DNA of 41,110 nucleotides from Candidatus Aegiribacteria sp. (GTDB lineage: Bacteria > Fermentibacterota > Fermentibacteria > Fermentibacterales > JCC-6). A program made the position numbers and the translations under genes. Position 1 is the stretch's first letter, and every line of letters begins with the position of its first letter. Below, in pieces: positions 34,391 to 37,515 of this stretch. Location: NCBI GenBank assembly GCA_013138965.1, contig WTBT01000012.1, positions 67,497-108,606 on the forward strand. Direction: 5' to 3'. The notes under the pieces were generated by a model. It saw only the letters and a list, made by a program, of their open reading frames with translations. It did not search any database and was not told where the DNA came from.

Positions 34391-34417
34391 TCCCGGCCCC
34401 GCTCTATTCCGGGATCA
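34388..34417. terminator. Bidirectional terminator hairpin spanning both convergent stop codons
   Basis: TGATCCCGG (34388-34396) and CCGGGATCA (34409-34417) form a perfect 9-bp stem with a 12-base loop. The first three bases are the stop codon of the glycosyltransferase gene, and the last three are the stop codon of the opposite propeller gene. There is no U-tract, so it may end transcription weakly or protect the 3' ends. Confidence 0.6.
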
Positions 34418-35398
34418 GAGGCACATCAGTTTCAGGACAGATTCCGAACCGCTGCCGCATCTGACCCTGGCAAAGTAGACGCCCTGCGAGAGATCATCTG
34501 AATCACCAAGCACATAGGATCCGAAGAAGCTGTCGCTGGACACCAGGTTACCCCTGATGTCATAGATGCTTATAGTCGATTGGCTGTCAAAACCGATACC
34601 CGTGATAGTCACCTGGCCGGCGAAAGGATTCGATGAGGCCTGGAGGCAAGGAGTGATGTTCTCTCCGGAACCCTCGATACCTTCGGTGAGATCTATCTTG
34701 TAGATCTTGTCATTCACGATATCGCTTACCCAGAGGTAGCCGCTTTCATCCATGGTTACACCACGTGCGTAGGGTACCAGTCCGGCGGGAATATTATCGA
34801 TCATCACGTTACTTGTGTTGTAGAGTCTCAACGGCATGACGGCGAGGTCGGTGGCTACCCAGATGTTGCCATTGGTGGTGATGGCGATATCTCTGGTCTG
34901 GCTTCCGCCGGAGTAGTAGATGTAGGATATCCTTCCCGTGATCCCGGGAGCTGTGTACCTGTAGGTCCTATTCTGGGTACGCGAACTGACGTAGAGGCGA
35001 GTGGCATTATTTGCCGCAAGTCCCGTCACCGACGAGACAGGGTTGCCTCAACCGCCGCACATGCTGGCGTAACCGATATAGGTGCCCGAATAGCTGTACT
35101 TGTAAACGTAAGCGTTGGTGGTATTGTTCCAGGCCGCGATGTACACAATGTCGTTCTCGACTGCAAGACCTGTAGCCTCATAGGCCGCAGTTATGAGAGT
35201 GGTGAAGGAGTTCAGAACATTACCCGACCCTGGATCGATCTTATAAACCTGCTTCGTAGAGGCGTCAGTGGCCCATAGATTGCCGTCCCCCCAGCCAAGA
35301 CCGGAGATGTCTCCAGTCGGGGAGTCGAAGGTCTGTACGATGGTCTTGGCAGGAGCGATCACGAAGAGGATGATCGTAAGGATGATAGCAATTCTCAT
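34415..35398 (-). CDS. Secreted beta-propeller protein with sorting tail, interrupted by in-frame UGA
   Basis: One frame runs from ATG 35398 to the TGA at 34415-34417, broken only by TGA at 35048-35050 (codon 117). Both halves make one sensible protein of about 327 residues: signal peptide (starting MRIAIILTIILFVIAPAK), NHL/six-bladed-propeller-like repeats (ISGLGWGDGNLWATDAST, and later VTMDESGYLWVSDIVND), and a FlgD/type IX-style tail (QVTITGIGFDSQSTISIYD). It is either a recoded gene (the UGA sits in C-G-G-UGA with a hairpin following) or a gene broken by a point mutation or sequencing error. A strong promoter lies at 35462-35490, and GCAGG precedes the start. Confidence 0.7.
35020..35050 (-). 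promoter_or_regulatory. In-frame UGA with downstream stem-loop (possible recoding element)
   Basis: On the mRNA, UGA (35050-35048) is followed by nine bases, then GTCTCGTC (35038-35031), loop GGT (35030-35028) and GACGGGAC (35027-35020): an 8-bp stem with one G-U pair. The loop begins 17 bases after UGA and opens with G. Bacterial SECIS elements sit at a similar distance. This is suggestive, not proof. Confidence 0.35.
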
Positions 35399-35461: not shown

Positions 35462-35490
35462 ATTATACGAGGAATTTTCTCTTCTGTAAA
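35462..35490 (-). promoter_or_regulatory. Strong sigma-70-type promoter for the interrupted propeller gene
   Basis: On the minus strand, TTTACA (5 of 6, 35490-35485) and TATAAT (6 of 6, 35467-35462) are separated by 17 bases. Transcription should begin near 35455, about 57 bases before the ATG at 35398. It is the best promoter match I found in the window. Confidence 0.65.
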
Positions 35491-35833: not shown

Positions 35834-36808
35834 ATGAAAAAAACACTGTTTTTGATCTCAGTTCTTGCTGTTGCGGTTATGGTTCTATCAGAAACCGGCT
35901 GCGGGATAACAAGCCCGGTATTCTCAACCGATTTCCCCTTCTATTTTCTTCAGGACATAACCGTCCCGACTACTCCGCTTCACTGCTGCTATCTTAAGGA
36001 TGGCGGAGATGGAATTGCGGCGGTGGACAGCCTCTATTTTATAGATTACGAAAACGGTTACTGCCTTGCCCGGGTGTACCTCGAGGGGTATACGGTTGAA
36101 GATGTGGGAGCAACTGCCGAAGGGGGGTATGCCCTTGCGCTCTGCGGTAATCTCCTTTTCTACGTGAGCAACAGCACCTATATAGTGCACAGCCCTGTTG
36201 CCCTCAGCTCCTACGGCAGATTCATTTTGACGGAACCCACCGGTGGAAGCTGGCACCTTTACTCGGTTGGAGCAAACGGGACAATTACTACGATCAATTC
36301 CCAATCGTGGGATGTGACAGCGGTAAATTCTGTATCGGGCCTTCAGGACCCTGTAGCGGCTGCTATTACTGCCGATGGAACAGCGATTTTCATAGCTGAC
36401 GGCTACGATAATACCATCAAGAAAATTTCCACCGGTGATCTCAGCGCTGTAGTGACTGAATGCGCGGTTCCCGGTGGAATAAACGATCTGTACGCAGGGT
36501 CAGGCAACCTGGTTTACGCAGCTCCGGATTCTCTTAATGTGATATGGGGAATAGATACGGGAACAGGTCAGCATTATTCCACCTATCCAATATCCAGCCC
36601 CGCTGTCGCAGTCGCGGTCACCCCTGATGACCATTACCTCTTCGTGGCTCACAAAAGCAGCGGTGTTTCGGTAATAAATACACAGAATAACGATGTGGAA
36701 GCCACAACATCCGGTTATGGAACGGTATACGACATTGCCGTAAACCCGAATGGCAACCGGTCGCTTCTCTGCTCAAACCTTGCTAAAATCATAAGCCTTG
36801 AGAAGTAG
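35834..36808 (+). CDS. Exported YVTN/NHL-type beta-propeller protein, probable lipoprotein
   Basis: A 324-residue protein with a signal peptide ending near LSETGC (C23 possibly lipidated, although E at -3 is not a good lipobox) and about seven propeller-like repeats, for example PVAAAITADGTAIFIADGYD, AVAVTPDDHYLFVAHKSS and GTVYDIAVNPNGNR. Such propellers bind proteins or sugars on the cell surface; no catalytic residues are recognised. ATG 35834 follows AGGAGA. It resembles the interrupted propeller gene on the other strand in theme but not in detail. Confidence 0.7.
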   Translation: MKKTLFLISVLAVAVMVLSETGCGITSPVFSTDFPFYFLQDITVPTTPLHCCYLKDGGDGIAAVDSLYFIDYENGYCLARVYLEGYTVEDVGATAEGGYALALCGNLLFYVSNSTYIVHSPVALSSYGRFILTEPTGGSWHLYSVGANGTITTINSQSWDVTAVNSVSGLQDPVAAAITADGTAIFIADGYDNTIKKISTGDLSAVVTECAVPGGINDLYAGSGNLVYAAPDSLNVIWGIDTGTGQHYSTYPISSPAVAVAVTPDDHYLFVAHKSSGVSVINTQNNDVEATTSGYGTVYDIAVNPNGNRSLLCSNLAKIISLEK

Positions 36809-36842
36809 GAGCAGAATCACCTTCTCAGGAAACACTTCGTTA

Positions 36843-36877
36843 TTGACATTATGGTACTACAATAGTACTATACTATT
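36843..36877 (+). promoter_or_regulatory. hicAB promoter with palindromic operator
   Basis: TTGACA (6 of 6) at 36843-36848 is followed after 17 bases by TACTAT at 36866-36871 (or TATACT at 36869-36874 with a 20-base spacer). A perfect 17-bp inverted repeat, AATAGTA-CTA-TACTATT (36861-36877), covers the -10 region. HicB antitoxins repress their own promoters through such repeats, so this is probably the HicB operator. Confidence 0.65.
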
Positions 36878-36890
36878 ATGCCGAGAAAAA

Positions 36891-37175
36891 ATGAACTACA
36901 CCCGCCGCAAGCAGCGGGGTATCTATAAGTCGAACTGCAACTGTTGCTACGCCCCAAGGGGCGGGGAATTAAACCCTCTTCAGATTAAAGAACTGATTCG
37001 TGATTTGAAAAAAGCCGGGTTTGTCAATCGCGGTGGGAAAGGGAATCACCGTAATTTCAAGCATCCGTGTGGAGTTAGACTCACTATCAGCGGAAATCCC
37101 GGGCATGACGCCAAGCGATATCAGGAGAGAGAAGTAGAAAAAGCCCTTTTGGAGGTGAAGAATGAAATCTGCTGA
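36891..37175 (+). CDS. hicA: HicA-family mRNA interferase toxin (start uncertain)
   Basis: The last 60 residues are a HicA toxin of the variant LIRDLKKAGFVNRGGKGNHRNF, with the catalytic histidine in GNHRNF and a DAKRYQEREVEKAL tail. HicA cleaves mRNA and is blocked by HicB. The family core begins near NPLQIKELI (about 36979). The only canonical start before it is ATG 36891, which makes a 35-residue extension encoded by the REP-like hairpins at 36892-36976 and has no good ribosome site. The native start may have been lost when that element arrived. The gene overlaps hicB by 14 bases. Confidence 0.78.
   Translation: MNYTRRKQRGIYKSNCNCCYAPRGGELNPLQIKELIRDLKKAGFVNRGGKGNHRNFKHPCGVRLTISGNPGHDAKRYQEREVEKALLEVKNEIC
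36892..36976. repeat. REP-like pair of GC-rich hairpins at the 5' end of hicA
   Basis: Two short GC-rich hairpins lie close together: CCCGC...GCGGG around 36902-36918 (centred on CGCAAGCA) and GCCCC-AA-GGGGC near 36951-36962, the latter followed by GGGGAATTAAACCC. These look like the REP/REPIN-type sequences scattered in many genomes next to RAYT transposase genes. I see no RAYT gene here, and only one copy in this window, so the assignment rests on form alone. Confidence 0.4.
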
Positions 37176-37515
37176 TAATTATTTCAAGATCGTAGAGTGG
37201 TCAGAGGAAGATCAATGCTATATTGGATGTTGCCCCGGTTTAATGCTGGGCGGTATACATGGTGACGATGAAGCCGAAGTATATAAAGAATTGTGCCATA
37301 CTGTAGAGGAATGGATAAGAATCTATAAGGAAGACGCTGATCCTCTTCCTCCTGCAACCGCTGGAAAGGAGTATTCAGGCAAATTTGTGATTCGAGTCGG
37401 GAAAGATCTCCACAAGATTCTGGTCGTTAAAGCCCTTAGAAACGGAGAAAGTCTGAACTCCTACTGCGTAAATGTATTGCGCGAGCAAAGATCCCCCTAT
37501 GGGGAGAACAAATGA
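37162..37515 (+). CDS. hicB: HicB-family antitoxin
   Basis: A 117-residue antitoxin with the HicB RNase H-like fold (YFKIVEWSEEDQCYIGCCPGL, about 7-65) and a C-terminal ribbon-helix-helix-type DNA-binding part (GKFVIRVGKDLHKILVVKA, then NGESLNSYCVNVL, about 72-110). It should neutralise HicA and repress the promoter at 36843-36877. GGAGGTGAAGA precedes the ATG. Gene order hicA-hicB and the overlap are typical. Base composition is more AT-rich than neighbours, which suggests transfer. Confidence 0.87.
   Translation: MKSADNYFKIVEWSEEDQCYIGCCPGLMLGGIHGDDEAEVYKELCHTVEEWIRIYKEDADPLPPATAGKEYSGKFVIRVGKDLHKILVVKALRNGESLNSYCVNVLREQRSPYGENK

Follow-up and report, generated by a model that had tools for sequence, protein, structure and literature searches.

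Within a reverse-strand gene of a Candidatus Aegiribacteria contig lies a single in-frame TGA, and the question raised by this locus is whether that codon ends a broken gene or is read through and, if so, as what. The stretch of DNA that we analyzed (the window; 41,110 nucleotides, positions 67,497 to 108,606 of contig WTBT01000012.1) had been described before from its letters alone, and this original prediction offered three options: a new secreted selenoprotein, another recoding of UGA, or a simple nonsense mutation. Here, we ask which of these is supported by the gene itself, by its relatives, and by the genome that carries it.

The gene is open for 327 residues including the TGA, which falls at codon 117 directly after Cys114-Gly-Gly, as originally predicted, so that reading it as selenocysteine (Sec) would give the motif C-G-G-U (Table 1). 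The frame terminates at an ordinary TGA (34417-34415), and the earlier exclusion of a global code change is thus borne out by the gene itself. The upstream promoter, described previously as near-perfect, matches the sigma-70 consensus at 11 of 12 positions; four promoter-like sites were found, compared to a shuffled mean of 1.9. Two neighbors were noted on the opposite strand: a gene whose product matches the beta-propeller model PF25174 weakly and well under its cut-off (35834-36808) and adjoining HicA and HicB family genes, likely a toxin-antitoxin pair (36798-37515).

Table 1. Features of the window gene, in window coordinates
Feature	Position	Strand	Basis
Predicted selenoprotein gene, 327 residues with Sec at 117	34415..35398	-	frame and translation
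TGA codon 117, predicted to be read as selenocysteine	35048..35050	-	conservation
Cys114 codon, putative partner of Sec117	35057..35059	-	sequence and alignment
Predicted bacterial SECIS hairpin, 8 bp, GGU loop	35020..35038	-	folding, covariation, conservation
Sigma-70-like promoter, TTTACA-17-TATAAT	35462..35490	-	consensus match only
N-terminal hydrophobic stretch, likely signal peptide, residues 1-18	35345..35398	-	by eye; helix 2-12 in model
Predicted five-bladed beta-propeller, about residues 19-240	34679..35344	-	structure model, Foldseek
C-terminal Ig-like type IX secretion sorting tail, residues 251-327	34418..34648	-	TIGR04183 and model

Conservation of the TGA codon and its cysteine partner

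A scripted survey of 149 loci yielded 127 distinct matched frames, 123 of which reach the Sec position (the other four comprise one frame at a contig end that begins downstream of it, two fragments, and a lone sorting tail). All 123 spanning frames, from Candidatus Fermentibacterota and nearly all of them from metagenome assemblies, carry TGA at this position, and all 123 have a cysteine at -1 or -3. The motif at the TGA is CU in 71 frames, CGGU in 47, CSGU in 3, and CPGU and CDGU in one each, while the residue that follows is Gly in 117, Ser in 4, and Glu or Asp in one each. The window gene is one of four Sec propellers in its own genome, along with two CU forms (on contigs C3 and C48) and a tail-less form (on C81). 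The original prediction had treated it as a single gene; that the gene is real stands, but it belongs to a phylum-wide family.

Searches of several designs gave the same picture. When the sequences on either side of the TGA served as separate queries against 60 genomes, 43 were matched by each, and many of the paired matches lay one codon apart. A profile built from 46 read-through proteins, all alike at the Sec column, had matches in all 42 genomes of the phylum that were searched, and the best 121 among the matches listed all contained at least one TGA and came, by hand count, from 40 of the 42; among these best 121, genome G012 had no TGA-containing match and G008 only a partial one. Scanning named genomes with the C-terminal part returned 47 loci, 45 of them from Candidatus Fermentibacterota (Ca. 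Aegiribacteria, Ca. Sabulitectum, and Fermentibacteraceae) and overlapping with the first set. TGA lay directly upstream of the match in 43 of the 43 loci examined, with L223, L227, L229, and L230 left out; in L229 and L230, which are outside the phylum, there was no UGA in the stretch read.

To compare selection on the two sides of the codon, we estimated dN/dS, which was 0.22 to 0.40 after the TGA in nine pairs of genes and 0.20 to 0.66 before it in eight (the highest value, 0.66, being that of L002-L034, and the ninth pair, L043-L041, being saturated). These ratios indicate that purifying selection persists downstream of the TGA.

Several variants were also seen. L226 and L228 form a further subfamily with the motif FC-TGA-GGGVPSAMGM. 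L327 (G008:C277) is a CGGU-TGA gene whose reading diverges after GNPVS and whose hairpin is lost, and it looks like a decayed copy; L030 (G035:C16:38921-39894) is a Sec propeller interrupted in its C-terminal part by a frame change.

A conserved hairpin downstream of the TGA

The hairpin described in the original prediction, beginning nine bases past the TGA, was recovered as 19 nucleotides that form eight base pairs, including one U-G pair, around a GGU loop whose first base is the 18th after the TGA. Its minimum free energy (MFE) is -9.8 kcal/mol (z -2.97). The wider 49-nt stretch does not fold very unusually (z -1.72); the signal sits in the hairpin itself. The longer context of L113 as a whole folds no better than shuffles (z 0.61), with the hairpin still in its MFE structure.

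Such hairpins are rare by chance. As a control, we used the 19,698 other codon positions within the initial set of 75 family genes. At 1.25% of them, a perfect stem of 8 bp or more closed by a 3-nt loop follows in the same distance range, and at 5.8% the loop of the best hairpin begins with GG. At least seven contiguous pairs around a 3-nt loop were present in 71 of the 75 genes, compared to 2.7% of the control positions. Of the TGA triplets in the window, 24 are flanked on each side by 60 or more open codons, and codon 117 alone pairs at all eight positions around a GG loop, the next-best triplet pairing at five of eight.

The hairpin is also kept across the family. GG occurs at exactly +18 or +21 in 121 of the 123 homologous frames, and the frames retain at least six of the eight stem pairs in 120 cases and at least seven in 109; the exceptions are two frames without GG at the set distance and one further frame that pairs at only four of eight. 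We tested covariation on 42 distinct hairpins from the first 75 genes. Aligned in register by the GG loop, which favors pairing, 96.1% of the 336 hairpin cells were paired, compared to 70.3% after shuffling. Doubly changed stem cells numbered 71 (shuffled mean, 21.5), and the stem covariation score was 0.632 (shuffled, 0.174); for all three measures, none of 500 shuffles was as high. Six of the eight stem pairs had changes on both sides, a count equaled by 44 of 500 shuffles. Codon usage points the same way: in 38 CGGU genes, those that carry the majority residue use just one codon at -1 and at each position from +4 to +9, while an invariant Leu at +10 uses six codons and an invariant Gly at -12 uses four. 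The lack of synonymous change at codons +4 to +9, which encode the hairpin, indicates that the RNA there is under selection.

The consensus for bacterial SECIS (bSECIS) elements in a recent review calls for a small loop with a G and a UGA-to-loop spacing of 16 to 37 nt (PMC13188914). The hairpin was also judged on a loop of 3 to 9 nt, a stem of 4 to 16 bp, a G in the first two loop positions, and an MFE of at most -7.5 kcal/mol. The window hairpin has a 3-nt loop, an 8-bp stem, GG in the loop, and the MFE given above, and the spacing, 17 nt in the window gene and 17 or 20 nt in 121 of 123 frames, falls within the consensus range. Judged by its sequence, geometry, and conservation, the hairpin is a bacterial SECIS element.

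Selenocysteine machinery and other readings of the TGA

The genome that holds the window (G000; 2.92 Mb in 110 contigs, 94% complete) encodes all of selA, selB, selC, and selD, for which the original prediction had proposed a search. SelA (445.7 bits) adjoins SelB (333.8 bits), the tRNA-Sec scores 75 bits and has the anticodon UCA by ARAGORN, and two SelD genes lie above cut-off, each with its own in-frame TGA. The two selD genes (G000:C74:6999-7931 and G000:C49:35877-36803) are of two different forms, and some relatives also have two. Across 17 SelD frames from 13 genomes, GGU or GGC stands at +23 in 14, seven of which have at least seven contiguous pairs; of the two SelD hairpins in the window genome, one has a 6-bp stem whose loop, at +18, is GGG, and the other forms just three contiguous pairs around GGC at +23. 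In G012, which is 73% complete, neither SelB, tRNA-Sec, or SelD above curated cut-off nor a Sec propeller was found among the matches listed. That genome has propeller relatives without Sec.

A hairpin at fixed distance, in a genome with SelA, SelB, tRNA-Sec(UCA), and SelD, indicates that the UGA is decoded as selenocysteine, and insertion of selenocysteine at UGA 117 is, on these grounds, almost certain. If a suppressor or a changed code had the UGA read as Trp, Cys, or Gly, the frame would equally stay open through the TGA, but we regard this as extremely unlikely. A changed code is rejected because the gene ends in TGA and because the complete machinery and the fixed-geometry hairpin fit Sec; moreover, the SelD genes of the phylum, which are known selenoproteins, also hold TGA, 14 of 17 with GGU or GGC at the distance given above, and the incomplete G012 lacks listed SelB, tRNA-Sec, and SelD as well as a listed Sec propeller. 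A pseudogene, with TGA 117 either a nonsense mutation of recent origin or an error made in sequencing or assembly, might be suspected from one in-frame stop in a draft assembly, but this is ruled out by the same TGA in all 123 distinct spanning frames from many assemblies, by selection that is unchanged past it, and by the TGA in three related genes of a closed genome from another phylum (described below). The new secreted selenoprotein among the original options is thus strongly supported, by the conserved TGA and Cys, the covarying hairpin, and selection past the TGA.

Relatives without Sec and relatives in a second phylum

Bacterial selenoproteins usually, though not necessarily, have homologues with Cys in place of Sec, and the original prediction had proposed aligning close homologues for Cys, Trp, or Gly at this codon. 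We fetched 19 loci, mostly better-scoring ones among the listed matches that lack a TGA, though not the full set of these; one, L180, stops short of the site. None of the 18 relatives that span the site has a Cys at the Sec column paired with the partner Cys. Instead, the site holds Ser in 12, Ala in one, and Asp in one, and the remaining four (the tail-less L177, L178, L179, and L181) have a lone Cys in the loop, which falls in the Sec column only in L181. (A TGA flagged in L179 is, by its sequence, the terminal stop.) No neat Cys-for-Sec replacement was found among them, so the family lacks the customary comparison of Sec and Cys forms.

A quick tree of 80 proteins (66 Sec and 14 non-Sec, built with the Sec loop removed and with long branches flagged) placed the non-Sec homologues on one side (support 99) and the CGGU genes in one group (99) nested among the CU genes. 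We also searched 385 genomes, scoring up to five candidates in each, so weaker relatives in other phyla may be missed. One genome outside the phylum matched at E 1e-15: G099, a closed 5-Mb genome that is the sole member of its phylum in the search set and has a SelA of 520.8 bits. It carries three propeller genes with an in-frame TGA after FHCPGG (L328:2328, L328:5268, and L329:1815; frames of 487 to 944 residues). Their hairpins differ from those of Fermentibacterota: a scan for 3-nt loops gave eight, three, and four pairs, and a GG loop at +18 or +21 was absent from all three.

Protein fold and export

An AlphaFold2 model of the window protein, made from 40 sequences, had a mean pLDDT of 86.9 and a pTM of 0.69 and showed propeller-like sets of strands over residues 19 to 236 and an Ig-like tail at 251 to 326. 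The strand order, together with a conserved 'GLAW...LWA.D...VY' repeat, suggests five blades, closed by the strand at residues 19 to 25. By this order, the loop at 113 to 123 would lead from the outer strand of blade 2 into the inner strand of blade 3; model confidence drops to about 72 at the Sec loop, which is placed here from strand order rather than from coordinates. The top four Foldseek matches were PDB entries 3mbr, 2iwa, 3nol, and 2faw, with TM scores of 0.68 to 0.75 by target length and 0.54 to 0.55 by query length, and sequence profiles matched designed Pizza propellers and NHL domains.

The sorting tail, which the original prediction had called intact, matches TIGR04183 at 33.4 bits (cut-off, 23), and the same tail is present in 41 of 46 family members. 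The window genome encodes an SprA translocon (SprA_N in two stretches, 49.5 bits together against a cut-off of 27, in a 1871-aa frame) and has dozens of further sorting-tail matches. From these sequence features, export of the protein to the cell surface is quite probable.

Discussion

Taken together, these data support a model, which we consider very likely as a whole, of a surface selenoprotein with a SECIS-decoded Sec117, export by a signal peptide and the type IX system, a five-bladed propeller, and a Cys-Sec thiol/selenol pair. In this model, UGA 117 would be decoded by SelA, SelB, tRNA-Sec(UCA), and SelD through the SECIS hairpin at its fixed distance; the predicted N-terminal signal would move the chain across the inner membrane, and the C-terminal type IX tail would carry it to the cell surface, where it is predicted to adopt the propeller fold. 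In propeller enzymes, the active site usually lies on the face where the linkers from outer to inner blade strands are found, and Cys114 and Sec117, in the loop between blades 2 and 3, would occupy that face. There, the two residues may work as a reversible thiol/selenol (selenylsulfide) couple. Its substrate would lie outside the cell, with zero-valent sulfur, polysulfide, and the disulfides of an anoxic and often sulfidic habitat as plausible candidates.

For the Cys-Sec pair, we lean only slightly toward redox use. A sulfur substrate is an improbable guess. Fermentibacteria have been characterized as strict anaerobes that live in anoxic and sometimes sulfidic settings (PMC5763382), and Mahoney Lake, from which Aegiribacteria come, has abundant polysulfide and elemental sulfur (PMC4846661; 'selen' does not occur in the main text of that paper). 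Ca. Sabulitectum silens, unlike Ca. Fermentibacter daniensis, is reported neither to possess nor to transcribe sulfhydrogenases (PMC5763382), a report that does not favor a sulfur substrate.

The Cys-Sec pair could instead be a soft-metal site (for mercury, copper, silver, and the like) in a surface metal binder or sensor rather than a redox couple. Cys and Sec are adjacent in 71 of the 123 frames, no other Cys stands in an invariant or nearly invariant column, and CU motifs occur in the catalogued MbdU, HgcA, SaoL, and SaoC (PMC13188914 Table 1). Against this, the spacing is CxxU in 52 of the 123 frames, with CGGU accounting for 47, the same table assigns CxxU to several redox selenoproteins, and the conserved neighbors, Asp, Trp, and Gly, are not obvious soft-metal ligands; we consider a metal site somewhat unlikely. 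UGA decoding is generally leaky, and the codon might thus serve as a switch, with a truncated secreted fragment made when selenium is scarce and the full propeller when it is present, so that the gene reports selenium status. However, in the model a chain ending at this codon would hold only about two blades of the propeller, and nothing that we saw suggests selection for the fragment as such, making a switch very improbable.

Returning to the Cys-Sec pair as a functional site of a full-length surface protein, we tentatively propose, as a possibility broader than our data require, that Sec-obligate surface propellers, with several paralogues per genome across the phylum, use a Cys-Sec pair on the top face for selenium chemistry outside the cell, whether to reduce sulfur or disulfides or to capture soft metals. 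If so, methods that search for Sec/Cys pairs would tend to miss such a Sec-obligate family, and the second-phylum propellers, with Cys at -4 (CPGGU), would point to an older or laterally moved system. Genes of this kind are likely annotated as two truncated fragments, and a family of surface proteins in an anaerobic phylum may thereby have escaped notice. The family also offers a testable case for the role of Sec outside the cell.

Among known structures, the top four Foldseek matches are all type I glutaminyl cyclotransferases, which are five-bladed propellers, at 14 to 16% identity, and the N-terminal part of the window gene falls below the cut-off of the corresponding family PF05096 (16 bits against 22.3). 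To our knowledge, type I glutaminyl cyclotransferase is not a selenoprotein. The tail is that of type IX (T9SS type A) sorting proteins; unlike such cargo, some members of the propeller family are tail-less, and the window genome's own paralogue L094 starts, by eye, like a lipoprotein.

Like other bacterial bSECIS selenoproteins, the family has an in-frame UGA, a coding-region hairpin just 3' of it with a G in a small loop, and SelA, SelB, SelC, and SelD in the genome. It differs in that its loop is almost invariably GGU or GGC, placed at either of two fixed distances, and in that no Cys-substituted Cys-Sec site was found for it. In searches, none of the 14 NCBIfam families that match the 46 members at E 0.01 or better is a seleno-family model, and the literature, in a search whose scope lay outside bioRxiv and most subscription papers, yielded no report recognizable as a Sec propeller family. 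The consulted sections of the deep-Sep paper make no mention of propellers, and its new families have Cys homologues (PMC12013277). A 2026 review tabulates 119 prokaryotic selenoprotein families or subfamilies (PMC13188914 Table 1), in which CxxU and CU motifs recur as well; by its table entries, none is listed as beta-propeller, NHL, virginiamycin-lyase-like, or type IX-sorted. As judged by comparison with those entries, this is a new selenoprotein family, with standard decoding and a new host protein. Most characterized selenoproteins have a thioredoxin-like fold (PMC13188914); here, Sec and its Cys partner would sit in a propeller, mostly with a type IX tail, in 123 frames of one phylum.
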